The notes beneath the pieces were generated by a model that worked only from the letters and a program-made list of their open reading frames with translations, did not search any database and had not been told where the DNA came from. Below are positions 7,014 to 25,031 of a stretch of DNA of 64,000 bases, one piece after another. The position numbers and the translations under genes were made by a program. Each line of letters begins with the position of its first letter. Positions within the stretch are counted from its first letter, which is position 1. Source of the stretch: Allocoleopsis franciscana PCC 7113 (GTDB lineage: Bacteria > Cyanobacteriota > Cyanobacteriia > Cyanobacteriales > Coleofasciculaceae); NCBI RefSeq assembly GCF_000317515.1, contig NC_019738.1, positions 6,164,001 through 6,228,000 of the forward strand, given 5' to 3'.

Positions 7014-7820
7014 ATGACCCTTTCCCTGAAAACCAGTTTGATCAGGCCAGAAGCGCAGCGCTATTGGGAATTGCTGCAAGTCTTAGTGGCGCGGAATCTC
7101 AACGCTCGTTACCGAGGTTCATTTTTGGGCGTATATTGGTCATTGTTCAATCCCTTAATTATGACGGGGCTTTATACCGCCATTTTTGGGATGGCATTTT
7201 CCTCTTACTATCATAACTCCCTACTTAACTATGTCTTGTCCGCATTCACAGGGCTGGTGGTGATCAACTTTTTCTCGGCCTCGACGGCTCAAGCCCTGTC
7301 AAGCGTGGTCAACAATGGCGGGTTATTAAACAAAATTCGCCTGCCCATGAGTATTTTTCCTGTATCTATGGTAATGGCGAATGTGTTTCAGTTTGCTATT
7401 GGGGTTTTGCCACTCCTAGCAATCGTAACGTTAGTGACTTCTAGAAACCTCGTGAATGTGCTAGTCCTACCGTTGCCGTTGTTGGCTTTAACATTAGTCT
7501 GTACAGGGATTGGCCTGTTAGTGAGTGGACTATTTGTCTTTTTTAGAGATCTACCTTATTTTTATGAGTTGATTACCTTTGTGATTTGGGTGAGTAGTCC
7601 GGTATTTTATCCAGCAGCCATCGTGCCAGCAACTGTAAAACCGTTTTTAGTTTTGAATCCACTGTGGCTGGTGATCGAAAGTCTGCGGCAAATTTCACTA
7701 TCCGGGACGCTACCCGACCTTAACTTGTTGGGAGGCGCGTTGCTCAGTGGTGTCCTGTTTTCAATGCTGGGATGGGTATGTTTTAGTAAATGGCGATCGC
7801 AGTTTATGGATTTGCTCTAG
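7014..7820 (+). CDS. wzm: Polysaccharide ABC-2 transporter permease (Wzm-type)
   Basis: The 268-residue protein has about six membrane segments and the ABC-2 polysaccharide-export signature: LVARNLNARYRGSFLGVYWSLFNPLIMTGLYTAIFG near the N-terminus, and LITFVIWVSSPVFYPAAIVP with LNPLWLVIESLRQ near the C-terminus. Wzm with Wzt moves completed undecaprenyl-linked glycans to the periplasmic side. The stop codon is immediately followed by the ATG of the ATPase gene, so the two are translationally linked. Confidence 0.93.
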   Translation: MTLSLKTSLIRPEAQRYWELLQVLVARNLNARYRGSFLGVYWSLFNPLIMTGLYTAIFGMAFSSYYHNSLLNYVLSAFTGLVVINFFSASTAQALSSVVNNGGLLNKIRLPMSIFPVSMVMANVFQFAIGVLPLLAIVTLVTSRNLVNVLVLPLPLLALTLVCTGIGLLVSGLFVFFRDLPYFYELITFVIWVSSPVFYPAAIVPATVKPFLVLNPLWLVIESLRQISLSGTLPDLNLLGGALLSGVLFSMLGWVCFSKWRSQFMDLL

Positions 7821-8555
7821 ATGGAATTGATTCGGCTGGATCGGGTTTCGCTGTTGCGGCGAACCCAAGAGGAATACTCCTATGACCTAAAAAAGACGAT
7901 CTTGTCGTTTTTGGAGGGAAAGTACCGCAAGCCAGCGAAAAAAGTGGTATTGGATCGGATCGACTTGGTGGTGGAAGCTGGGGAAAAGGTAGGGATTATT
8001 GGAGCAAATGGTTCAGGCAAATCGACGTTGCTGAAGGTAATTTGTGGAATTTTGCAGCCAACTAGTGGCACGGTACGGGTGCGAGGACAGATTGCACCGT
8101 TGATCGAACTCGGAGCGGGGTTCGATCCGGAAATGTCAGTGATGAATAATATTATCTTTTATGGGGTGTTACTAGGGTTTTCCAAAGCAGAAATGTTACA
8201 GAGAACACCAGCCATTTTGGAGTTCGCTGAGTTACAGGACTATGCTTTGATGCCAGTTAAGGCGTTGTCTTCAGGGATGGTAGCACGATTGGGATTTGCG
8301 ATCGCGACAGAGGTACACCCCGATATTTTGATTCTCGATGAGGTGTTATCGGTAGGGGATGAGAGTTTTAAGAATAAGTGCAAACGGCGGATTGATAAAT
8401 TCTGGGAGGCGAATGCCACGGTTTTGGTGGTTTCTCACGATTTGGGATTCATCCAGCAGTCTTGCGATCGAGCTATTTGGTTAAAGAAAGGTGAAATTCA
8501 ATTTTCAGGTAGTGCTGAGGATGCTGTAAAGACTTATCTTAGTTCTCTCGTATAA
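7821..8555 (+). CDS. wzt: Polysaccharide ABC transporter ATPase (Wzt-type, short form)
   Basis: The 244-residue protein shows Walker A GANGSGKST at about residues 60-68, the family extension LIELGAGFDPEMSVMNNI after the Q-loop, signature LSSGMVARLGFA, Walker B ILILDEVLSVGD and switch His VVSHD. It ends soon after the nucleotide-binding domain, so it lacks the C-terminal carbohydrate-binding domain found in longer Wzt proteins that recognise capped O-antigen. Export should therefore not depend on a terminal modification read by this protein. It starts directly after the permease stop codon. Confidence 0.93.
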   Translation: MELIRLDRVSLLRRTQEEYSYDLKKTILSFLEGKYRKPAKKVVLDRIDLVVEAGEKVGIIGANGSGKSTLLKVICGILQPTSGTVRVRGQIAPLIELGAGFDPEMSVMNNIIFYGVLLGFSKAEMLQRTPAILEFAELQDYALMPVKALSSGMVARLGFAIATEVHPDILILDEVLSVGDESFKNKCKRRIDKFWEANATVLVVSHDLGFIQQSCDRAIWLKKGEIQFSGSAEDAVKTYLSSLV

Positions 8556-8605: not shown

Positions 8606-9919
8606 GTGAAGAATTTCCCGACTATCGTATCTTGGTTATACAGCCGTCAAACTTTTTTGATCGCTGGCACTCTACTATTTTCAGTCAGTCCTCTCCTTTG
8701 CGGCTTACTTTACTTTGGGGCTGCATTAGTCTCAATCTTTAACTGGAAGCAGGTGATTTTTACCAGGGAGCGTATAGTTCTTACTGTTTGTATTGTAGTC
8801 TTGTCTATTGGGCTAGCTTTCCGGAAGGTTGAACCGGAGAGAATTCTTCCTGGTTCAATATCTTTAAGTGATTATATTCCTTTTTTACCCTTCTTCTTCC
8901 TAATCAGCTTAGAACCGTTTTCGGAATCGGAAATTACTAATTTTTTTTATGCTTTGATTCTGACAATTCCACAACAGTTTCTCTTGGCAGTTGGGGAGAA
9001 TTATCTAGGTTGGTATGGAAGGTTTTATTTTTTAGGAGAACAGTTTCCCCTAATTGATGTATGCGTAGGCCCGATTGCACGAGGTCTTAAAACTTCAGCT
9101 AGTTTTTTCAATCCAAATATTTTTTCAGTTTATTGTATATTTTGTGCAGGAATTTGCTTGAATTTGTTAATAGCTGAACTCAAGCCCTTCACTCTTAATT
9201 ATACTATTAATTTAAAATTAGGCATACGGATTTTAGTTCCTTTTTTTGGCCTAGCTCTCTGCACAACTTTGATAATATGGTCAGGTTCAGATGCTGGATT
9301 AATGATTTTTTTACTTAGCACTATTATTTGGCTGTCCTGGATGACAGATAAATGGCTATATCTGATAACCATTGGCGCAGTCGGTACTCTTATAGCTTTC
9401 ATCTCTTTAAACAGCTTTGGTTGGCTAACGCAGTTTGTAACTTTTCTAATTCCCCAAAGGCTTTTGACTCTTCTAAATTCAGTACTAGCGTCTTGGAATG
9501 ACAGAAAGCCTTTTTATAAATGTGCTGTTCAGTTAATTCAGAAAAAGCCACTTTTCGGTTGGGGGATTGGGAAGTTTTCACAAGAGTGTGCGAATCGTAC
9601 AGGAATGGAAATGGCTCACGCTCATAATATAGTTTTGCAACTTGGAGCAGATACTGGCTTGCCTCTCGCTATATTATTTTTATCTTTTTTAGGATATATA
9701 TTGTTTTCTTGTATCCATTTCCTCCGAACAGTAAGAACAAAAAAGAGTATGACTTACCAATTGTCGGCAGGGTTAATTATAGTATCGATATCTATAATGT
9801 TGATGCAAGCTTTTGACTTAGGACTCCTGATGTCTTATCGATTAAATTTCCTGTTCTGGATTTGTCTTGCCATACCATACTCCCTGGCATCTCAACCTAA
9901 AGTTTCAAAAGCTTTGTAA
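8606..9919 (+). CDS. O-antigen ligase/polymerase-like membrane protein (Wzy/WaaL superfamily)
   Basis: The 437-residue protein has about 10-12 hydrophobic segments. Its large loop contains KPLFGWGIGKFSQECANRTGMEMAHAHNIVLQLGADTGLPLAI; the G-x-G-x-G-x-F followed by HAHN is the Wzy_C/O-antigen-ligase hallmark. Members either polymerise repeat units or ligate glycans to lipid or protein. The start is a GTG with an AAGG-like site upstream; no better start is visible. It lies between wzt and the giant glycosyltransferase. Whether it is a ligase or a polymerase cannot be told from sequence. Confidence 0.85.
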   Translation: MKNFPTIVSWLYSRQTFLIAGTLLFSVSPLLCGLLYFGAALVSIFNWKQVIFTRERIVLTVCIVVLSIGLAFRKVEPERILPGSISLSDYIPFLPFFFLISLEPFSESEITNFFYALILTIPQQFLLAVGENYLGWYGRFYFLGEQFPLIDVCVGPIARGLKTSASFFNPNIFSVYCIFCAGICLNLLIAELKPFTLNYTINLKLGIRILVPFFGLALCTTLIIWSGSDAGLMIFLLSTIIWLSWMTDKWLYLITIGAVGTLIAFISLNSFGWLTQFVTFLIPQRLLTLLNSVLASWNDRKPFYKCAVQLIQKKPLFGWGIGKFSQECANRTGMEMAHAHNIVLQLGADTGLPLAILFLSFLGYILFSCIHFLRTVRTKKSMTYQLSAGLIIVSISIMLMQAFDLGLLMSYRLNFLFWICLAIPYSLASQPKVSKAL

Positions 9920-9931
9920 GTAAGCCGTGTT

Positions 9932-12900
9932 ATGTACCAAGATTCACAAACTAACAACAAGCCAGTACAACTCCACGTCATGCATAGTTGGGGGGGAGGA
10001 ATAGAACGATGGGTACGAGACTACTCCCATACAGACATTCTGCGAACTAACTTAGTTTTAAAGTCCTCAGGAGTTCCAGGGATTCCTGGACAAAGGCTTG
10101 AACTATATCAATCCATTGACATCGATATACCAACTCGTGTTTGGGAGCTTACTCTCCCTATTCATGCTACTTCTGTTACTAATCTGGATTATCGTTATGC
10201 CCTAGATGAAATTATTAATCACTTTAATGTTAGTGCTATCCTGATTTCATCATTTATTGGTCATTCATTGGATATTCTTAATACTAATCTAGAGACTACA
10301 GTTATTTGCCATGACTACTATCCCTTTTGTCCAGCTATAAACATTTACTTTGGCAAGGTATGTAAGGAGTGTAATTTCAGTCATTTACAGCATTGTTTTA
10401 AAGAAAATCCATACAATAATTTATTTCCTCAAGCCTCAGCTTCAGAATGGATGCCGATTCGTAAGAGTTTTTTAAAGTTAATTCAGCATCATAAAGTTAC
10501 ACTAGTCGCGCCTTCTGATTCAGTTAAGCGTAACTTAATTAAGCTGGAACCCGCTCTTGCCAATGTTCAGTTTAAGATAATTCCTCATGGAGCAGAGTTG
10601 CCAATTCATTCTGATATAGAACTGGATGATCTACATCAGGAGAATAGAAAGCTAAAAATTCTTATTTTAGGACGATTAGTATTTCACAAGGGTTTAGAGC
10701 TGCTCAAAGAAATATATCAAGAAATTCTTGATGTTGCGGATATTTTTTTGTTGGGGTGTGGTGCTACAGGTCAAAATTTTCAAGAAATGCCTGGAATCCA
10801 TATAGTTGCTGAACAATACTCCCTAGATGACTTGCCAAAACTTGTAGGACAAATATCTCCTGACTTAGGTCTTCTTTTATCGATTGTTCCGGAAACATTT
10901 AGCTATACTTTGAGCGAACTTTCCCTTTTAGAAATTCCAGTTTTAGCAACGAATCTAGGTAGCTTTCAAGATCGTATAAAAGAAGGAGTTAATGGATTTT
11001 TAGTTACTCCTGAAAAGAATGCTCTCATTGATAAAATTAGAGAATTGTCTGAGCAGCGGCACCTTTTGGCTAAGGTTAGCACTTACCTAAAAGGTATATC
11101 CCATCGAACGTTGCAAGAGATGGTAGAGAACTACTACGAGGTGGTAACGCTGACTCATCCTCCTCAATCAAAAGCGTCCAGGGAATTAAATGCTCTCAAC
11201 TTAGAGCCGTCGGAGTTGGAGCGATCGCACTCTCAGATTGTCAACACTCAGATTAAGTTAGAGCAAACGCAGACTCAATTACAACAGACTCAGGCAGAAT
11301 TAAATAAAGCCCTGTTTCAGATGCAAGAAACCAAATTTGGGCTTGAGCGATCGCAGAGTCAGTTAGAGCGATCGCAGAGTCAGTTAGAGCGATCGCACTC
11401 CCAGTTGCAACATACTCAAGCTGAATTAGGGAAATCTCAGTCCCAACTGTTGCAGGCTAAGGCTTTAATTTCCGGCATGGAAAGCAGTAAATTCTGGAGG
11501 CTAAGATTAGCTTGGTTTAAAGTCAAGGATATTCTAAATCTCGTCTCCGATTCAGAAATTTATCGCCCTAATGCTCTTGCCAGTCTCTCTGATAACAGCC
11601 GCTTCAACAACAACCCTGGCTTCTCTAAAAACATCTCAAAAATGTTTGCCTTTATTAGTGGCTGTCCAGGGGATGCTTATCGATATCGATGTCACCATCA
11701 GGCAGAAATACTAAGGTATGTCGGCTATGCCGTTGATGTCTACGAACCCAATTTATTTCTCTATGAAGAACTTCTAAAGAACTATAGGATAATCGTTGCC
11801 CATCGCGTTCCTTATACTTACGAATTTGAACAGTTCGTTGCGAAGGCTAACAACCTGGGTCTAAAGGTTATTTTTGAAACGGATGATTTAGTCTTTGATA
11901 CATCTCTCTTGCATCAAATTGATGCTTATATGAAGATGGATCTCAAAGACAAGCAGCTTTACGAAGATGGGGTGAGGCGATATCGCAAGGCCTTGAGCTT
12001 GTGTGAGGCTGTCGTTGTTAGTACGGAAAAACTGAAGCAGAAAATAGAAAAGAGTTTTCCTGAAAAGGCTGTTGTTATTTCTCGAAATCGTATCAGCAGC
12101 GACATGGAACAAGAGGCTATTAAAGCTCGTGATATCTATATTCCTGACGATCAGCTAATCAGAATTGCCTATTTCAGTGGGACCAGAACCCATGCAAAAG
12201 ATTTTGCAGAATGCGTTTATGCTCTAAGTAGTATCCTAAAAGAGTTCCCTGACGTTCGCTTGATGGTCGTTGGGCATCTAGATATTCCAGAAGAACTCCA
12301 GCCATTTTCATCTCAAATTGAAAAATTTCCTTTCCTTCCTTGGCAAGATTTACCGGGGCTATACCGAAAAGTTACCATCAATCTCGCACCCCTGGAAAAA
12401 AATAACGACTTTACGGAATCAAAAAGCGAACTTAAGTATTTTGAAGCAGGGCTTGTCTCCGTTCCGACTGTTGCCTCCAATTGGGGGGCTTTTCGGGTTG
12501 GTATTACCGATGGAGTGAATGGACGGCTGTGCAGCAATCCTCAAGAGTGGGAGAATGCTCTACGGGAACTGATCACTAACCCCAAGTTACGGCAGGAAAT
12601 GGGGCAGAAGGCGTTTGATGATGTCAATGCTCGATATCTTACCCGCACAGCAGCGACTCTAACGGGGAAAGCATGGCAAACGCTTGTTGGAGGAAAGATA
12701 TTACCCGATAAACCTCTATCCATTGCTTTTGTTCTTCGAGCGCCTATTGCTCAAACAGGAGGAGGTTATAAGCATATTTTTTATCTAGCTCATTACTTAG
12801 CTGAGCAAGGTCACAACGTAAATATCTATGTTGAACCGATGGCACATCTGACAGGCTTTACTCCCGAACAAGTACAAAAATTCTGTGAGGAGAACTTTGG

Positions 12901-13765
12901 GAAGAGTAAAGCAATTATTCATTGTGGTCACGCTGATATTGTGGAATCTGATGTGGCGATCGCAACAAACTGGCCAACTGCTTATGTCGTTGATAAGCTA
13001 GTTAATACAAGATTTAAAGCGTACTACGTTCAAGATTATGAACCTTACTTTTATGAACCTGATGATCCTTGTTTTCTTCAGGCAGAAGCCACCTATGATT
13101 TGCCGTTAGGTATAATTTGTCTCGACAAGTATTTATCCCAAGTGTTGAGCAAAAGGAATCGAATTCAATACCCTTATATCAACTTTCCCTTGAATGAAGC
13201 GTTTTTAGCTAAAGCTCCAGTTTTGACTCGTCATTGCAATCCTGATCGGTCTTGCTCGATACTGTTCTTTGCTCGACCAAACATTCCCCGACGTAATTTT
13301 GCTGTTGGAGTAGAAGCTTTAGATAAATTGCATCAGCAAAATCCTGATGTACAAATTAAATTGTACGGAATGGAAGAAGCTATAGAACTCCCATTTCCTT
13401 ATCAAAATTTAGGCGTTTTAACTCAGTCGGAAGCCGCAGAAGCCATGCGCTCATCTGATATCCATTTATCTTTCTCCCTAACTAACATCAGTACAGTTGT
13501 ATTTGAAGCGATGGCTTGTGGATGTGCAACTGTTGAGGCGGATGTTCCTCCAGTTCGAGGTATGGTTGAGGATGGAAAGACTTGTATTTTAGCAGAACCC
13601 AATTCCCAAGCTGTTTCTGAAGCGTTGATGGAACTTGTCAATAATCCTGTGTTGCGACGAGAAATTGCGAGCGCTGGATATGAATCAGCTAAAACACTAA
13701 CAGTAGCAAGGATGTGTTCTAAATTTGAGCAGTTACTCAATCAATATACTTTTAGAACAGCCTGA
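9932..13765 (+). CDS. Giant three-module glycosyltransferase with internal coiled coil and SKFWRLR tag
   Basis: The protein has 1277 residues. Module 1 (about 1-410) is a GT4-like fold with the nucleotide-sugar site PETFSYTLSELSLLEIPVLATNLGSF. A coiled coil follows (about 425-510) with LERSQSQ/LERSHSQ heptads encoded by HIP1-containing 21-bp units, then the tag MESSKFWRLRLAWFKVKDIL at about 516-535. Module 2 (about 570-905) begins FAFISGCPGDAYRYRCHHQAEIL and has SKSELKYFEAGLVSVPTVASNWGAF. Module 3 (about 928-1277) begins IAFVLRAPIAQTGGGYKHI and has a WsaF-like C-terminal half (SFSLTNISTVVFEAMACGCATVEAD). It probably adds two or three sugars in sequence. The tag and heptads are shared with the methyltransferases downstream. 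Confidence 0.88.
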   Translation: MYQDSQTNNKPVQLHVMHSWGGGIERWVRDYSHTDILRTNLVLKSSGVPGIPGQRLELYQSIDIDIPTRVWELTLPIHATSVTNLDYRYALDEIINHFNVSAILISSFIGHSLDILNTNLETTVICHDYYPFCPAINIYFGKVCKECNFSHLQHCFKENPYNNLFPQASASEWMPIRKSFLKLIQHHKVTLVAPSDSVKRNLIKLEPALANVQFKIIPHGAELPIHSDIELDDLHQENRKLKILILGRLVFHKGLELLKEIYQEILDVADIFLLGCGATGQNFQEMPGIHIVAEQYSLDDLPKLVGQISPDLGLLLSIVPETFSYTLSELSLLEIPVLATNLGSFQDRIKEGVNGFLVTPEKNALIDKIRELSEQRHLLAKVSTYLKGISHRTLQEMVENYYEVVTLTHPPQSKASRELNALNLEPSELERSHSQIVNTQIKLEQTQTQLQQTQAELNKALFQMQETKFGLERSQSQLERSQSQLERSHSQLQHTQAELGKSQSQLLQAKALISGMESSKFWRLRLAWFKVKDILNLVSDSEIYRPNALASLSDNSRFNNNPGFSKNISKMFAFISGCPGDAYRYRCHHQAEILRYVGYAVDVYEPNLFLYEELLKNYRIIVAHRVPYTYEFEQFVAKANNLGLKVIFETDDLVFDTSLLHQIDAYMKMDLKDKQLYEDGVRRYRKALSLCEAVVVSTEKLKQKIEKSFPEKAVVISRNRISSDMEQEAIKARDIYIPDDQLIRIAYFSGTRTHAKDFAECVYALSSILKEFPDVRLMVVGHLDIPEELQPFSSQIEKFPFLPWQDLPGLYRKVTINLAPLEKNNDFTESKSELKYFEAGLVSVPTVASNWGAFRVGITDGVNGRLCSNPQEWENALRELITNPKLRQEMGQKAFDDVNARYLTRTAATLTGKAWQTLVGGKILPDKPLSIAFVLRAPIAQTGGGYKHIFYLAHYLAEQGHNVNIYVEPMAHLTGFTPEQVQKFCEENFGKSKAIIHCGHADIVESDVAIATNWPTAYVVDKLVNTRFKAYYVQDYEPYFYEPDDPCFLQAEATYDLPLGIICLDKYLSQVLSKRNRIQYPYINFPLNEAFLAKAPVLTRHCNPDRSCSILFFARPNIPRRNFAVGVEALDKLHQQNPDVQIKLYGMEEAIELPFPYQNLGVLTQSEAAEAMRSSDIHLSFSLTNISTVVFEAMACGCATVEADVPPVRGMVEDGKTCILAEPNSQAVSEALMELVNNPVLRREIASAGYESAKTLTVARMCSKFEQLLNQYTFRTA
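11347..11396 (+). repeat. HIP1-bearing 21-bp tandem units encoding coiled-coil heptads
   Basis: Three perfect GCGATCGC octamers sit at 11347, 11368 and 11389, spaced exactly 21 bp, and a fourth lies at 11221. Each 21-bp unit encodes one heptad (ERSQSQL or ERSHSQL). Comparable units with HIP1 or near-HIP1 sites (42-bp double heptads) occur at about 17630-17750 in the methyltransferase gene downstream. Confidence 0.9.
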
Positions 13766-13818
13766 ATGAATTTCTAGACCTTTATCATTGTTTCTAATCA
13801 TTAAACAGAAGGATACCA

Positions 13819-14664
13819 ATGAATAATTTAAAAATTGACTTAGGCTGCGGAGCTTGTAAAAAGGAAGGAACGATTGGTGTTGATATTGAACCTCATTCCT
13901 GTGTTGATTATGTATTAAATATTCAAAACGAAGCGCTACCTTTTCCTGATCGTAGTGTTCAATATGTTCATTCATCTCACTTCTTAGAACATATTGATAA
14001 TCCAATGCCACTGTTCCAAGAACTAGGGCGTGTTTGTCAAAATGGTGCTGAATTAGAATTCTGGACTCCTTATGGTTGGTCTAATCCGGCTTTTATTCTC
14101 AGTCATAAAATATTCTACAATGAAGATCATTACCTTCACCTCTGTGTCTGGTATAAAGATTTCTGGAAAGATTTTCTTAAAGCAAATTGGGTACTCAAGG
14201 AATTTATTTATATTGTAGAGCCTCAAGTACTAACAGAGCTTTATAGTAATAAAATTAGTCTGGACTTTGCACTCAAATACTATAAAGGCGTTGTCAAAGA
14301 GTTTGGCGTATCTATCGAAATACGTCATGATGACGATGGAGCTGTTTGCCAGCCCAAGCGAACATTTGCTGTTGAACGTTATGCCCAACGATATCCTGTT
14401 AATGTTAATTCATTACAACCCAATGACTATCTCGACGGTGATTATTTAAATAAGGCGATCGAATGGTTTTCATTAGGAACACAGCAAACCGAAAGTCTAG
14501 AAAGTCTGCAAAGTCTGGAACTATTAAGGGGACAGCTTCTAAAAGCTCAGGCAGAGTTGGAGCAAGCTGAGGCTACCATTTCGGCGATGGAAACCAGTAA
14601 ATTTTGGAAGCTGCGAAAAGCCTGGTTTGAAGTCAAAAAAGCTTTAAATATGAAATCCACATAG
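13819..14664 (+). CDS. SAM-dependent methyltransferase with C-terminal SKFWKLR tag
   Basis: The protein has 281 residues and starts after AGAAGGA. It has a short class I methyltransferase domain: KIDLGCGACKKEGTIGVDIEPH at the N-terminus, then VQYVHSSHFLEHIDNPMPLFQELGRV. The C-terminal 50 residues are a Q/A/E-rich coiled coil ending in MET-SKFWKLRKAWFEVKKAL, the same module as in the glycosyltransferase upstream. It lacks the C-terminal substrate domains of small-molecule methyltransferases. A role in methylating the growing glycan is inferred from context. Confidence 0.85.
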   Translation: MNNLKIDLGCGACKKEGTIGVDIEPHSCVDYVLNIQNEALPFPDRSVQYVHSSHFLEHIDNPMPLFQELGRVCQNGAELEFWTPYGWSNPAFILSHKIFYNEDHYLHLCVWYKDFWKDFLKANWVLKEFIYIVEPQVLTELYSNKISLDFALKYYKGVVKEFGVSIEIRHDDDGAVCQPKRTFAVERYAQRYPVNVNSLQPNDYLDGDYLNKAIEWFSLGTQQTESLESLQSLELLRGQLLKAQAELEQAEATISAMETSKFWKLRKAWFEVKKALNMKST

Positions 14665-14743
14665 GTCGATAAAAAGCAAATTCTATTATATTGAAGGCCG
14701 AAAATGTGCTTAAAATTTTTCACAAAAAATAACTAAAAAAACA

Positions 14744-15706
14744 ATGATTACACGCCAAGATTATCAAGCCAATCGGTTGAAGTTTTTGAAAACATGGGTG
14801 GATCTAAAGGAGTCAGAAGGATTAGAGATAGGATCTTGCGATCTACCCACTGTGCCAAGAAAAATAGGCAACTGTGAATTCGCAGATTTTCGTTCTGCTG
14901 AAGAGATGATTCGTCTTTGGAACCTGCCTCCTGAGACAGTTATGCCAGTCACGTATATTCTTAAAAGAGATACCAAAATCCATCTACAAATTGCTAAAAA
15001 ATTTGATTATGTGGTTCTCTGCCATGTAATTGAGCATATTCCTAACCCGATCGGATATATCGAAGATTTGCAGAAGTTGTTAAAGCCTGGTGGAACAATT
15101 TTAATTGCCTGCCCAGATAAGAGAAGAACCCCAGATGCTTCAAGACCTTCAACAACCATAGAACATTTAATTAATGATTATTACAATGACTTCAACTATC
15201 CCTCATTAGAGCATATTTTAGAATTCGCCAAGGCTTGGTCTGATGAAATTAGACAAAAAAGTTTAGAATCAGCCACAGAGTTTTATGAGTGGGGTCGCCA
15301 GAATTTTGAGTCTGGTCTAGCAGATGCACATTGTCATGTTTGGATAGATGAAGAATTCTTTACTCAAATTCAGTATTTAATAGATGGGAAGCTGCTGGAA
15401 GGCTTAAAAATCATTGATAAATCCTATAATGAACCCCTCTACAATGAGTTTTTAATTGCCCTCAAAGCTGTGGAATCGCAACCATTTGCATTGACTGTTG
15501 AGTCTGAATCTGAAACTCTGGCACAAGTGCGATCGCAGTTACAAAAGACGCAGCAAGCGTTACATCAAGCCCAAGCAACGATTGCGGCTATGGAAAGCAG
15601 CAAATTTTGGAAGTTACGATTAGTCTGGCTTAAATTCAAAAAAATATTGACTTTGGCAACGCTTTATCTGATTTCAAGGAAAAAACATAAGATTTTGAGA
15701 GCCTAA
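14744..15706 (+). CDS. SAM-dependent methyltransferase with C-terminal SKFWKLR tag
   Basis: The 320-residue protein contains the strand-4 signature FDYVVLCHVIEHIPNPIGYIEDLQKLLKPGGTILIACPDKR. Motif I is unusual: GLEIGSCDLPTVPRK instead of GxGxG, a form seen in other polysaccharide-locus methyltransferases. The C-terminus is a coiled coil (LAQVRSQLQKTQQALHQAQATIAAM) followed by ESSKFWKLRLVWLKFKKIL. The next gene starts 4 bp after its stop, so co-transcription is likely. The substrate is not identifiable. Confidence 0.82.
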   Translation: MITRQDYQANRLKFLKTWVDLKESEGLEIGSCDLPTVPRKIGNCEFADFRSAEEMIRLWNLPPETVMPVTYILKRDTKIHLQIAKKFDYVVLCHVIEHIPNPIGYIEDLQKLLKPGGTILIACPDKRRTPDASRPSTTIEHLINDYYNDFNYPSLEHILEFAKAWSDEIRQKSLESATEFYEWGRQNFESGLADAHCHVWIDEEFFTQIQYLIDGKLLEGLKIIDKSYNEPLYNEFLIALKAVESQPFALTVESESETLAQVRSQLQKTQQALHQAQATIAAMESSKFWKLRLVWLKFKKILTLATLYLISRKKHKILRA

Positions 15707-15710
15707 TCTT

Positions 15711-16658
15711 TTGGAGCCAGAAAAATTAGTAATTCAGTGTCAATATCAGATTGCCGCTTACATTACGGCTTACGAAGATTCAGAAGCGGTAAAGCAATGC
15801 ATTCACGCAATCAATCGCCAAGATTTTCCCATACAGAAAATTTTGATTGTTGATAACTCACAGCAAAAATTAGTTATTGATGAAAAAAGTATTTTTGAGA
15901 ATGTAATTGTTAAATTTTATCCTGAAAACATTGGAATCTCTGGAGGTTTAGCTATTGCTTTTGCCTGGGCAATCCAGGGAGGCTATGACTTCTTGTGGAT
16001 ATTTGACCAAGATAGTGTAGTGGAAGATGATTGTTTAACTAAACTATTGTTGGCTTATGAAAGTTTGAATAGTTCAGAGTATTTAATTGGGATTATTGGA
16101 CCGACAGCAATTGATCCCAGAAGCCATCAAATTATTGAAGGGGCTGTATTTGAGGATGGTTGCTTCAAAGGTCGCAAACCCCCTGAAACAGAACAACCCT
16201 ATGAATGTGATTCTCCGATTACTTCCGGGTCTTTAACATCCCTTACGGCAGCTCAAACAGTTTCTTTACCCCGTACCGACCTGTTTATTGATGGAATTGA
16301 CCTTGATTACGGGCTGAGACTAAGGCAACAAGGATTTCATAACTTGATTGTTCCTAAAGCAAGAATGTACCATAACTTTGGTAAGCCAATTCAAGTAGAA
16401 GTATTTGGCAGAGAACGGCTCATCCACAACTACTCTCCTCTCCGGTACTACTATATCTTCAGAAATCACACTTATCTAGATATTCACTATTCTCAAGGAT
16501 GGTATCGCTTCATCAATTATTGGCGACGAGTGAATTACTTGAGCCGTACAATTGCTTTGATTTTGCTGTGTATACCTGAAGATAAAGCTTTAAAAATCTG
16601 GGCTTGTTTGTTAGGGCTAATCCACGGCTTTACGGGTAAGCTTGGTAAAACTTGGTAG
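15711..16658 (+). CDS. Family 2 glycosyltransferase (rhamnosyltransferase-like)
   Basis: The 315-residue GT-A enzyme shows YITAYEDSEAVKQCIHAINRQ, ILIVDNSQ, ENIGISGGLAIAFAWAIQGGYDFLWIFDQDSVVEDD (DxD-type metal site) and LFIDGIDLDYGLRLRQQGF, which match rhamnosyltransferases of the GT2 family. The C-terminal part has a hydrophobic segment (TIALILLCIPEDKALKIWACLLGL). The start is a TTG 4 bp after the previous stop; no ATG is available upstream of the first beta strand. Unlike its neighbours it has no SKFWKLR tag. The next reading frame overlaps or abuts its end. Confidence 0.85.
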   Translation: MEPEKLVIQCQYQIAAYITAYEDSEAVKQCIHAINRQDFPIQKILIVDNSQQKLVIDEKSIFENVIVKFYPENIGISGGLAIAFAWAIQGGYDFLWIFDQDSVVEDDCLTKLLLAYESLNSSEYLIGIIGPTAIDPRSHQIIEGAVFEDGCFKGRKPPETEQPYECDSPITSGSLTSLTAAQTVSLPRTDLFIDGIDLDYGLRLRQQGFHNLIVPKARMYHNFGKPIQVEVFGRERLIHNYSPLRYYYIFRNHTYLDIHYSQGWYRFINYWRRVNYLSRTIALILLCIPEDKALKIWACLLGLIHGFTGKLGKTW

Positions 16659-16687
16659 TTAGAAGTCACGACTTAAAGGAGGGAAAC

Positions 16688-17836
16688 TTGAACGACATTG
16701 AATTAATAGAGCAAGAGAAAAGAAAAATTATTGAGCGCTACGGCCAATGGACATCTCATAAAATTTACCTCGGACAGGAGCTTTACACCATTGACGAACA
16801 ACAAGAGGTTCAAGATGAGTTAAAAAAAAGCATCCTAACTCAGACTGAAACCCGATTGAAAAGCATCTTTCAAACAATCTCTGATTTGCTTGATCGCCCC
16901 CTACAGAGCCTGCGGATTTTAGACTTAGCTAGTCTTGAGGGAATTTATGCCATAGAACCGGCTCGTTATGGAGCTAAGGCAGTAGGCATAGAAGTTCGAG
17001 AAGCAAACATTGAGAAAGCAAAGTTTGTCAAACGAATACTGGGTTTAGAAAATCTTGAACTTTTTCAGGATGATGTCCGGAATTTAAGTAAAGAAAAATA
17101 TGGCTCTTTCGATGTAGTTTTGTGTATCGGTATCTTTTACCATCTCGATACTCCCGACGTTCTTCACTTCATGGAAAAGATAGCCGAAGTTTGTGAAGGG
17201 TTGTTAATTCTAGATACGCACATCAGCTTCACTCAGGAAAAATCTTGCTCTTATCAAGGAAAGACCTACTGGGGAAAATCTTATTTAGAGCATTCTTCAG
17301 TGTCTACGCTCGAAGAACGGGCAAAAGTGCTGTGGTCATCTATTGATAATCTTGAAAGTTTTTGGTTCACTCGTCCCTCTCTATATAACTTGCTCACCCA
17401 AGTCGGATTTACTTCGATCTTCGAGTGCCAAGAGATGAAGAAGATGTATGAAGTTCATAAGGTCTATGACCGGATTACCCTTGTGGCAGTAAAAGGACAG
17501 CAACAGACTTTAGAACTATCTTCACTAACTAATGTATCACCACAAGAAGATTGGCCTGAAAAGCTCCATTTGGAAAGTTTCTATAAGCAACTGCCTCCAC
17601 TTCAACAAGCTCAAGAGGAAATTGCTACTCTGCGATCGCACTTAGAGCAAACTCAAACAGAAATGGCTACTCTACGATCGCAACTCCAACAAACTCAAAC
17701 AGAAACTCTTGTCATGCGATCGCACTTAGAGCAAGCTCAAGCAGAAATTGCTGCCATGAAGACTAGTAAATTCTGGAAGTTACGGACAGCTTGGTTTGGG
17801 GTCAAAAAAATGATGGGGATGAAAACCGATGATTAG
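16688..17836 (+). CDS. SAM-dependent methyltransferase with coiled coil and C-terminal SKFWKLR tag
   Basis: The 382-residue protein is started at TTG 16688 because a strong AAAGGAGGG (16675-16683) lies five bases upstream; an in-frame TTG at 16652 would have no such site and would overlap the previous gene. The methyltransferase core is ILDLASLEGIYAIEPARYGAKAVGIEVREANIEKAKF followed by FDVVLCIGIFYHLDTPDVLHFMEKI. The C-terminal coiled coil repeats LRSHLEQTQTEMAT in 14-residue units and ends with KTSKFWKLRTAWFGVKKMM. This is the last gene of the run and is followed by a terminator-like hairpin. Confidence 0.87.
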   Translation: MNDIELIEQEKRKIIERYGQWTSHKIYLGQELYTIDEQQEVQDELKKSILTQTETRLKSIFQTISDLLDRPLQSLRILDLASLEGIYAIEPARYGAKAVGIEVREANIEKAKFVKRILGLENLELFQDDVRNLSKEKYGSFDVVLCIGIFYHLDTPDVLHFMEKIAEVCEGLLILDTHISFTQEKSCSYQGKTYWGKSYLEHSSVSTLEERAKVLWSSIDNLESFWFTRPSLYNLLTQVGFTSIFECQEMKKMYEVHKVYDRITLVAVKGQQQTLELSSLTNVSPQEDWPEKLHLESFYKQLPPLQQAQEEIATLRSHLEQTQTEMATLRSQLQQTQTETLVMRSHLEQAQAEIAAMKTSKFWKLRTAWFGVKKMMGMKTDD

Positions 17837-18074: not shown

Positions 18075-19670
18075 CTATGCAAAGGTTAGTACAACAGTGG
18101 AGCCAGCAAATATAAACGCTGCTGCTGAGTCTTCCACAACCGCAATTGTGTCACCCCGGAAGAGAATTTCGGTATCAAGAGCAGAGGTTCCAGAGAAATC
18201 CCCAATCTGGAGAGTGTAATCGTTCAGATTTCCAGTTACTTGAATGATATCCTCTCCAAATACCCAATCCTTAATCGTGGCATAGCCAAGTCCCAAGAAG
18301 TCTACGAATCCCGCCTGTCCCAATACGAAAGTATCAGTCCCAAATCCACCTCTGTAGACGTCATAACCTCCTATGCCAATCAAACGATCATTACCATTAC
18401 CACCAATAAGAGTGTCACTGCCGTAACCTCCCCAGAGAGTGTCATTGCCGTTACCACCCTCAAGATAGTCGTCACTGAAGTTGAAAGCATTTACAGTGCC
18501 ACCACCTATAAAATCATCTCCGTCTCCACCGAACAGGGCATCCGCTCCCAACCCACCATAGATGGTATCTGCGTCAAGACCACCTCCTACTGTATCGCTT
18601 CCATCGCCACCATCCAGGAAGTTAAAGCCGAGAATATCCAAGATTAGATCGTTGCCAGCATTACCTGTGATGGTGTTACTGTCAATACCACCTTCTAGAT
18701 AGTCATCACCCAAACCTCCATCAATTAAATCCAGGCCGGCGATGCCGAAGATTGTGTCGTTACCAGCACCACCGTTGAGGACTTCACTGCCATACCCTCC
18801 TACAACGGTGTCATCGCCACCGCCAGCATATACAAAGTTTATTGAAATATTAAAGGGGTCTAGGATGCTGTCATCGGTGTAGATCCGGTCATCGCCATCA
18901 CCCGTATTGATGGTGTCAGAGCCATAGTAACCATAGATAATGTTGTTGCCTGCGTAGTCTACGATAACGTCATTTCCAAGTCCGCCTCTAACAAAGTCAT
19001 TTCCAAAACCTCCATCTATGGTATTACTACCGCTGATGCCGAAGATTATGTCGTTCCCAGCACTACCGTTGAGAATGTCATTACCATACCCTCCTACAAT
19101 AATGTCATTGCCGCCGCCAGCATCTACAAAGTTTGTCGCCACATCCAATGGGTCTAGGATGTCGCTACCGGTGTAGATAATGTCATCGCCATTGCCCGTA
19201 TTGATGAAGTCAGAGCCATAGTAACCATAGATCTTGTTGTTGCCGGCGAAGTCGAAAATTACGTCATTTCCAAGTGCGCCGAAAATGAAGTCATTCCCGA
19301 AACCCCCATCTATTGTGTCATTACCGCCGATGCCATAGATTTCATCGTCGCCAGCACCACCGTTGAGGATTTCACTGCCAAACCCTCCTACAACAGTGTC
19401 ATTGCCACCACCAGCATCTACAAAGTTTGTTGAAACACCAGAGGCGTCTAGGAATCCGTTCTCGGTGTAGATAATGTCATTGCCATTGCCCGTGTTGATG
19501 AAGTCAGCTCCCAATCCACCATAGATAAGATTGCTGCCCAAAGAGTCTGAAATAACATCGTCTCCACTATTGCCATCAATGATGTCGCTGCCATTCCCAC
19601 CATTGAGATAATCATTTCCTGTACCGCCGAGTAAATAGTCGTCGCCTAGAGTTCCCACTAAAAAGACCAT
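18075..19670 (-). CDS. RTX-type calcium-binding repeat protein, probably secreted
   Basis: The 531-residue protein consists almost entirely of GGxGxDxL-type nonapeptides (DYLLGGTGNDYLNGGNGSD and variants), which form Ca2+-binding beta-rolls. There is no Sec signal peptide. The last about 80 residues (DTFVLGQAGFVDFLGLGYATIKDW... to ...FIFAGSTVVLTFA) look like a type I secretion tail. A longer period is visible: an INTGNGxDxIYT block recurs three times exactly 294 bp (98 residues) apart (19465, 19171 and 18877). The ribosome-binding site is GAGGAG, 9-10 bases before the ATG. No type I exporter genes are in the window. The upstream region carries the four-copy bipartite element array. A role as a surface or gliding-associated protein is inferred. 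Confidence 0.9.
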   Translation of the reverse strand: MVFLVGTLGDDYLLGGTGNDYLNGGNGSDIIDGNSGDDVISDSLGSNLIYGGLGADFINTGNGNDIIYTENGFLDASGVSTNFVDAGGGNDTVVGGFGSEILNGGAGDDEIYGIGGNDTIDGGFGNDFIFGALGNDVIFDFAGNNKIYGYYGSDFINTGNGDDIIYTGSDILDPLDVATNFVDAGGGNDIIVGGYGNDILNGSAGNDIIFGISGSNTIDGGFGNDFVRGGLGNDVIVDYAGNNIIYGYYGSDTINTGDGDDRIYTDDSILDPFNISINFVYAGGGDDTVVGGYGSEVLNGGAGNDTIFGIAGLDLIDGGLGDDYLEGGIDSNTITGNAGNDLILDILGFNFLDGGDGSDTVGGGLDADTIYGGLGADALFGGDGDDFIGGGTVNAFNFSDDYLEGGNGNDTLWGGYGSDTLIGGNGNDRLIGIGGYDVYRGGFGTDTFVLGQAGFVDFLGLGYATIKDWVFGEDIIQVTGNLNDYTLQIGDFSGTSALDTEILFRGDTIAVVEDSAAAFIFAGSTVVLTFA

Positions 19671-23889: not shown

Positions 23890-24281
23890 GTTTTGTTTTC
23901 TAAGCTGATGACTATCCACAGAGGATAAGTTCTTATTTCCTGAGTGCGGCTCACAACCTTAGGGTGATCTATGTAGTTTCTTTCTAAAGTGATAGCCACC
24001 CTACACTAGGTATATGATAATTTTGTGAAAATTTGCCCAATCCTGAGGGTGTGACCAGCCTGTCAGGCAGACACAACTGTAACGGGAGGTATATTCCAAA
24101 CTTCAACATGGATTCGAGTGTTCGCAACCAACTCAAATATAAGATAGGTTAGTTTCCTGCAAAAATTTTGCCAGGTTGGTGAGATTTGGCATAACGATAG
24201 AGAACATAAAAGACAACCTTCTCCAAAACCAACTACTTTTATTAGCTCACGCGAACTAGCATTTTATTGAGACATAGACCG
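23890..24281. other. Gene-free stretch before the winged-helix regulator gene
   Basis: No ORF of note is present. Two inverted repeats are visible: TAGGGTG at 23960-23966 pairs with CACCCTA at 23997-24003, and CCTGCAAAA / TTTTGCCAGG lies near 24156-24175. Neither is followed by a T-run, so neither is a clear terminator. It probably contains the promoter of the regulator downstream. Confidence 0.5.
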
Positions 24282-25031
24282 ATGTATAAATGGGGGGATT
24301 TACGCTTAGAGCCAGAAGCTTGTGAAGTCAGCTACCAAGGACAAACCCTGCGATTGTATCCCAAAGAGTATGAACTTTTGAAGCTATTCTTTGATTACCC
24401 GAAACGGGTATTAAGTCCATCTTTTATCATTGATCGTCTTTGGTCTTTTGATACAATTCCCAGCGAAAGTGCCGTAAGAACTCATATTAAAGGACTGCGA
24501 CGTAAACTCAAAGATGCAGGGGCAGAAGATGTCATTCAGACCGTTCATAGTTTGGGTTATCGTTTGAAGCCGCTGCCGAAAGAGACCCAGAAATCGGATT
24601 CTTCATTGAGTCCCATGTTGATAAAGCTATTAGCATTACATGAAATTGAACATATTATCGTTGATAAGAATTTTATTATTTTGGAGGCTTCTCCAGATGT
24701 AAAAAAATTCTCTGATTATCCGTGGGATGTGGAAATTGGTCGAGAAGTAACTTTAGCATTTCCTGAATTAATTGGGCTTGAATCTACTCTATTGGAAATT
24801 TTAGAAAACCAAAAACCCAGCTTTGATATTAAAGGAATTGCTCGGTCAAAAAATTCTCTAAGACCAGACTACATCAATATTTATGCCATGAGCGAACCCA
24901 CAGAAAACCAATCCAACCAAAGATTACTTCTTTTGTTTGAAGACTCTTCGGAAAAAATGATTTGGAAACAGCAGGTTGTTCAACAAGAAAACGAATCTTA
25001 TTTACTGATTGGAGAACCCTTTAAAAATTAA
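24282..25031 (+). CDS. Winged-helix DNA-binding regulator with C-terminal PAS-like domain
   Basis: The protein has 249 residues from ATG 24282; an in-frame TTG at 24267 is less likely. Residues 1-95 form an OmpR/PhoB-type winged helix ([32 protein letters not shown]... [18 protein letters not shown]... [13 protein letters not shown]). There is no N-terminal receiver domain. The C-terminal 140 residues ([48 protein letters not shown]...) look like a PAS-type sensor. The DNA-binding domain therefore precedes the sensor, which is the reverse of normal response regulators. The target is unknown. Confidence 0.75.

Follow-up and report, generated by a model that had tools for sequence, protein, structure and literature searches.

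The enzyme WbdD of Escherichia coli O9/O9a and O8 terminates chains in a polysaccharide pathway with an ATP-binding cassette (ABC) transporter, Wzm/Wzt. Through its C-terminal region, WbdD is held at the membrane and brings in the polymerase WbdA, while its coiled coil serves as a ruler (PMC3447403, PMC3482155, PMC5082667, PMC11231755). This C-terminus has been described as an amphipathic membrane helix (PMC3447403), and the WbdD556 trimer forms via the C-terminal helix (PMC3482155). Capped systems require a carbohydrate-binding domain of Wzt (PMC11231755). Here we analyze a tail of about 25 residues that follows a coiled coil in one glycosyltransferase (GT) fusion protein and three methyltransferases (MT1 to MT3) of the cyanobacterium Allocoleopsis franciscana PCC 7113. 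All four are encoded in a stretch of 64,000 nucleotides (the window; contig NC_019738.1, positions 6,164,001-6,228,000 of the forward strand, G000:C1:6164001-6228000). Coordinates without another label are window positions, position 1 being its first letter. The tail is real, widespread, and unnamed. Its most plausible role is docking, as a variant of the WbdD C-terminal module that is used many times over.

With Wzm and Wzt encoded beside glycosyltransferases, the window locus is an ABC-transporter dependent polysaccharide locus. The closest NCBIfam models of its Wzm and Wzt are those of the galactan transporter, with scores below the cut-off. As in WbdD, methyltransferase, coiled coil, and tail core follow one another in this order. 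However, WbdD has the tail SRSWR[IM]TxPLR where the cyanobacterial tail is SKFWKLRxxWFxxK, the window tail is found on several enzymes of the locus (three methyltransferases and a GT), and the window Wzt has no carbohydrate-binding domain. The catalytic region of WbdD is a methyltransferase in O8 and a methyltransferase-kinase in O9; the window enzymes contain methyltransferase domains and gave no match to a kinase family.

A different arrangement is seen in Klebsiella pneumoniae O7 ORF6 and O12 WbbB, where a terminator, a coil, and polymerase GTs lie in one chain. An orthologue of the window fusion protein (in locus L037) is similarly built of a methyltransferase, a coil, the tail, and two GTs, the tail lying at the junction of the coil and the polymerase module, whereas the window fusion protein starts with a GT4 domain and not with a terminator. 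The Geobacillus S-layer glycan (WsaE/WsaF) is ABC-exported as well. In this case, the likeness covers only the last GT domain of the fusion protein, which matches the rhamnosyltransferase family WsaF_C of Pfam.

Four tails in a single locus of the genome

The four tails share the pattern IxxM[EK][ST]SKFW[KR]LRxxW...K, with the core M[EK][ST]SKFW[KR]LRxxW, within an aligned block of 36 residues. The codons of the conserved Met are at 11477, 14587, 15590, and 17756, the first inside the fusion protein and the others at the C-termini of the methyltransferases. A six-frame scan revealed no further true copy of the core in the window. In a profile search of the 8-Mb genome, the four tails were found with E-values of 6.8e-23 to 7.1e-22 and the next match was no better than E ~1, so that the tail match is not due to chance and no copies exist in this genome outside the locus. 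Ahead of each tail lies a stretch of 37-91 residues that is rich in Q, E, and L, poor in Pro and Gly, and compatible with a helix.

No Pfam, NCBIfam, or PDB family covers the tail residues, no PDB chain matched the tail profile up to E 10, and a PubMed Central (PMC) text search for the motif letters gave no relevant paper. The tail is absent from the window GT2 glycosyltransferase and from all six homologues found. The first-pass annotation, made from the letters of the window, had already described the four tails, the coiled coil ahead of each, the tail-less GT2, and the lack of a named domain, and the searches above agree with it on each of these points.

Relation to the module that ends the WbdD coil

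After its coil, WbdD of E. coli O8 (IAI1) continues with LHNSRSWRITQPLRWL (core SRSWRIT), and the 708-residue WbdD of an O9-type strain with IHRSRSWRMTKGYRYL, where SRSWRM is found at residue 592 directly after the coil (SRSWRMT). The core common to WbdD and the cyanobacterial tails is [ILM]xxS[KR]xW[KR][LIM], placed directly after the coil in both. Outside the tails called by the profile, a slightly wider core pattern occurs six times in 393,129 residues of cyanobacterial loci, and each of the six resembles a degenerate or variant tail, near a C-terminus or behind a Q/E/L-rich stretch of the same loci. The sequence SKSWKITAPLRWI, in a methyltransferase of the MT2 family (L072), is collinear, column by column, with the SKFWKLR tails of its relatives, and this protein bridges the two forms. 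Profile-profile comparison of the two forms with hhalign gave P = 3.2e-4 in the correct register. Searching cyanobacteria with the WbdD tail yielded weak matches and one clear WbdD-type C-terminus, RSRSWGLTAPLRW, in a picocyanobacterial family (f32, L115). With both tail types, a search of plasmids returned only identical enterobacterial copies, one Nostoc plasmid match, and one weak Marivivens match. The WbdD and cyanobacterial tails appear to be the same kind of module and are probably homologous.

Conservation and predicted structure of the tail

Over 173 tails, the core positions are nearly invariant: S18 (98%), K19 (97%), F20 (97%), W21 (99%), R24 (98%), W27 (97%), and K31 (92%). The 35 residues upstream of the tails contain 20% Gln compared to 7% in the whole proteins, and Gly and Pro are nearly absent. 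The AlphaFold model of the coil and tail (64 residues, from 59 coil-tail segments) displays high per-residue confidence, with a mean pLDDT of 93, and consists of a helix over residues 2-40, a break at T41-S42, and a second helix over residues 43-57. Since the helix is broken at T41-S42, S18 looks like a helix N-cap. The same Ser break appears in the prediction of full-length MT1 (six sequences), in which only the coil and tail are usable, the catalytic domain having a mean pLDDT of 45. The second helix is strongly basic, with a net charge of about +5.5 in 18 residues that also include Trp, Phe, and Leu.

This composition, like the description of the WbdD C-terminus as an amphipathic membrane helix, would suit an unspecific amphipathic membrane anchor that needs no partner. 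We regard such an anchor as unlikely, since conservation of 97-99% at the S, K, F, W, R, and W positions exceeds what a generic anchor needs and since the hydrophobic moment of the tail helix is not significant. On the latter ground a plain amphipathic helix was ruled out. Strict residue conservation together with modest amphipathicity suggests instead that the tail binds a specific partner or lipid head group.

The tail was also considered as a direct continuation of the coiled coil. This was ruled out, as the hydrophobic stripe shifts phase and the predicted helix breaks. The same two features tell against a related explanation, in which the tail would be a cap for homo- or hetero-oligomerization and the coils and tails of the enzymes of one locus would pair into mixed bundles without any need for a membrane. 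This explanation, which we find doubtful, draws on the trimerization of WbdD556 via its C-terminal helix (PMC3482155) and on the presence of a like coil and tail on several enzymes of a locus.

Distribution across genomes and association with Wzm and Wzt

A profile built from 22 tails was searched against 386 cyanobacterial genomes and matched in 82. In a scan of one genome per species over 84,980 prokaryote species, we obtained 272 confirmed relatives. The best 75 of their loci, all cyanobacterial, were analyzed together with the window, and in these 76 loci 172 reading frames carry 177 tails. Of the 76 loci, 52 have at least two tail genes, with a maximum of seven. About a third of the sampled loci show a single tail gene in the fetched stretch, which is a further point against mixed bundles. 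In genomes with several copies, 80 of the 104 tail sites are at most 15 kb from another tail. Proximity to Wzm is likewise frequent: among 34 near-complete genomes, 38 of the 68 tail sites are at most 15 kb from it (0.86 expected). The other sites are found in small islands of glycan genes surrounded by housekeeping genes.

In 123 representative proteins, the domains fused to the tail are GT4, GT2, several methyltransferase families (class I, FkbM), and sulfotransferases. The first-pass annotation had suggested this survey and had named a random spread over unrelated pathways as the outcome contrary to docking, and what the survey found is a set of glycan enzymes. A search for transmembrane segments replacing the tail in tail-less enzymes revealed no useful difference. 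Two variations on the tail were also noted. Three large proteins end with a tandem pair of tails spaced by about 50 residues (L042:10735-13245, a GT4; L043:10144-13263; L053:11163-14288), and other large proteins, encoded beside SKFW-tail genes, carry a variant tail, SSDWWQLRERWW / SSRWWQVREKWW, after the coil (L086:10121-15664, L095:903-3230, L110:10130-13078).

The Wzt proteins bear on whether the tailed methyltransferases are chain terminators like WbdD, each capping the chain, with the coil as length ruler and the tail as an anchor beside the polymerase. In 35 tail loci that have both Wzm and Wzt, Wzt is at least 370 residues long in 22, enough for a cap-recognizing domain, and short in 13; the carbohydrate-binding domain Wzt_C is present in the six long ones checked and absent from the short ones checked. 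The long Wzt proteins are thus in line with terminators, as are the order of parts shared with WbdD and the order methyltransferase, coil, and two GTs of K. pneumoniae O7 ORF6 (PMC11231755), which recurs in the L037 orthologue of the fusion protein. However, terminated systems of known export have the carbohydrate-binding module on Wzt (PMC11231755). The window Wzt, at 244 residues, lacks it, and for this reason the WbdD capping scheme does not fit the window. The only Wzt_C of the genome lies about 0.5 Mb away with a second Wzm. Moreover, a GT is tailed here besides three methyltransferases, and sulfotransferases and GT2s are tailed elsewhere, while the coil runs are short for a ruler.

The number of tail genes per locus also differs, with a mean of 3.0 for short Wzt and 1.55 for long Wzt (Mann-Whitney p = 1.8e-4, and p = 3e-4 with near-identical loci collapsed), a comparison that is a lead rather than proof because the loci are related and the fetched stretches are unequal in length. 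Taken together, we judge it improbable that the tailed methyltransferases are simply WbdD-like terminators. The data suggest two uses of the tail: in capped systems, on a WbdD-like terminator, and in uncapped systems, the window among them, in a decorating complex of several enzymes.

Gain and loss of the tail and exchange of the enzymes joined to it

Orthologues of MT1 are tailed in three loci (L106, L054, L048) and tail-less in two (L077, L079), and the relatives of MT3 are tail-less. The L037 orthologue of the fusion protein (68% identity) keeps the coil, the tail, and both C-terminal GTs, with a methyltransferase in place of GT4. More broadly, one GT-GT unit, with 60-84% identity across loci, is joined via coil and tail to a methyltransferase, to a sulfotransferase, or to no upstream enzyme. 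Tail evolution is modular, with gain and loss in orthologues and enzyme swaps upstream of the coil. Tails also appear to number about one per polypeptide, as an address tag would predict, because a fused MT2-like and MT1-like protein (L048) has one common tail and the separate MT1 and MT2 of the window have one each.

The first-pass annotation had further proposed that the similar DNA of the window tails reflects copying of the module between neighboring genes. The similarity itself is modest: the tail DNA is 64-76% identical, compared to 58-68% expected for the same peptides with local codon usage, and two of the six pairs are clearly above expectation. Across the 76 loci, the mean tail identity is 0.568 within loci and 0.552 between loci (16 of 1,000 permutations were as high), so that the tails of a locus have not been homogenized. 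Recent copying among neighboring genes was consequently rejected as a general rule. The same near-equality disfavors an oligomerization cap, for which matching tails of a locus should co-vary.

Per kb, the cyanobacterial HIP1 octamer (GCGATCGC) occurs 1.38 times in the coil-coding DNA ahead of the tail and 0.42 times in the remainder of these genes, a roughly threefold difference in density. The regions counted were window 11210-11430 and 17599-17755 and the coil-coding DNA of the tail genes in L037-L111. HIP1 might flag the coil as a site of recombination or promote recombination there.

In the extreme, the tail could be a non-functional by-product of recombination, spread via repetitive coil DNA. 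The repeats and HIP1 sites of this DNA and the enzyme swaps at the coil would fit such an origin, but the tail core is conserved throughout the phylum, which is incompatible with a lack of function and already contradicts this explanation, to which we give almost no credence.

Genes of the window locus

The features of the locus are listed in Table 1. The window GT2 is closest to rhamnosyltransferases, and MT3 matches the sugar O-methyltransferase EvdMO1 (E 9.8e-14) better than WbdD (E 0.004). Elsewhere in the genome, a second Wzm/Wzt pair is found at G000:C1:6733723-6735895, whose Wzt has a carbohydrate-binding domain and which has no tail gene nearby. The polysaccharide locus is adjoined by a gene for an RTX calcium-binding repeat protein of 531 residues (18075-19670, minus strand). 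Farther along, the protein encoded at 24267-25031 (plus strand) has an N-terminal OmpR-type DNA-binding domain, no receiver domain, and then a region without a Pfam family.

Table 1. Positions of the tail modules, their coiled coils, and the genes of the polysaccharide locus in the window.
Feature	Position	Strand	Basis
Wzm-type export permease; homologues adjoin tail genes in many genomes	7014..7820	+	NCBIfam, genome survey
Wzt-type ATPase, 244 aa, without C-terminal carbohydrate-binding domain (Wzt_C)	7821..8555	+	Pfam, NCBIfam
Wzy_C membrane protein, O-antigen ligase/polymerase family	8606..9919	+	Pfam
Fusion protein, 1277 aa: GT4 domain, coiled coil, SKFWRLR tail, two GT domains (last WsaF-like)	9932..13765	+	Pfam, L037 orthologue
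Fusion-protein coiled coil, 91-aa Pro/Gly-poor run, 21/42-nt repeats	11210..11476	+	DNA repeats, composition
Fusion-protein tail module, internal, ISGMESSKFWRLRLAWFKVKDILNL	11435..11542	+	profile search
MT1, methyltransferase, 281 aa, coil and C-terminal tail; tailed and tail-less orthologues known	13819..14664	+	Pfam, homologues
MT1 coiled coil	14440..14586	+	composition, AlphaFold
MT1 tail module, ISAMETSKFWKLRKAWFEVKKALNM	14545..14652	+	profile search, AlphaFold
MT2, methyltransferase, 320 aa, coil and tail; L072 family member with WbdD-type tail	14744..15706	+	Pfam, homologues
MT2 coiled coil	15482..15589	+	composition
MT2 tail module, IAAMESSKFWKLRLVWLKFKKILTL	15548..15655	+	profile search
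GT2 glycosyltransferase, rhamnosyltransferase-like, tail-less	15711..16658	+	Pfam, NCBIfam, homologues
MT3, methyltransferase, 394 aa, nearest solved relative EvdMO1, coil and tail	16652..17836	+	Pfam, PDB comparison
MT3 coiled coil, 42-nt (14-residue) repeats	17599..17755	+	DNA repeats, composition
MT3 tail module, IAAMKTSKFWKLRTAWFGVKKMMGM, predicted helix, break at Ser, helix	17714..17821	+	profile search, AlphaFold

A putative docking module for glycan assembly

From the conservation of the module, its fusions, clustering, gain and loss, and swapping, its predicted helix-break-helix structure, and its motif match to WbdD, we infer oligomerization, binding to a membrane or partner, and co-assembly of the enzymes. 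The explanation we favor, and consider reasonably probable, is that the tail docks glycan-assembly enzymes in a sequence-specific manner and is the cyanobacterial counterpart of the module found at the end of the WbdD coiled coil. The Q-rich coiled coil would oligomerize the enzyme and keep its catalytic domain off the membrane. The invariant Ser would then break the helix, and the short aromatic and basic helix that follows (KFWKLRxxWFxLK) would rest on the cytoplasmic face of the membrane and/or bind a common partner at the site of synthesis and export of the lipid-linked polymer. With its own tail on each separately encoded soluble enzyme (glycosyltransferase, methyltransferase, or sulfotransferase), all of them would be gathered at one assembly site, while enzymes fused in one chain could use a single tail.

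Several observations weigh against a docking module of this kind. Neighboring enzymes of glycan synthesis, for example the GT2, function without the tail, as do many homologues that lack it. The amphipathicity of the tail helix is not significant, its moment being reached by 123 of 500 column permutations at 100 degrees and by 69 of 500 at 103 degrees. For the relation to WbdD, the hhalign probability between the two forms is only 39, and the hidden Markov model of the cyanobacterial tail does not find WbdD by itself. Finally, several genomes have tail genes away from any Wzm, in small glycan-gene islands among housekeeping genes, so that Wzm/Wzt cannot be the sole receptor.

The docking or membrane-association tag proposed in the first-pass annotation is therefore retained in part. 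A shared module does occur on unrelated enzymes of one pathway, and its distribution fits such a tag, with clustering near other tail genes and Wzm, about one tail per polypeptide, and the analogy with the WbdD region; the recent copying between neighboring genes was not upheld. More tentatively, the tail could serve glycan assembly as a general address code that a single common receptor recognizes, be it a lipid-linked precursor, a polymerase, or a protein associated with the exporter. Gaining a coil and a tail could then admit any glycan enzyme to the complex, and SKFW and the SxSWR of WbdD would be two dialects of the code.

A feature known from single chain-terminating enzymes thus becomes a widely reused module. 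With the tail as a sequence mark, enzymes that belong to the same glycan pathway can be recognized, among them methyltransferases and sulfotransferases, which are otherwise difficult to assign. Should it act as a docking tag, separate soluble enzymes could be brought together at the membrane in a simple, testable way, and the tag could be used to engineer new glycan pathways in cyanobacteria.

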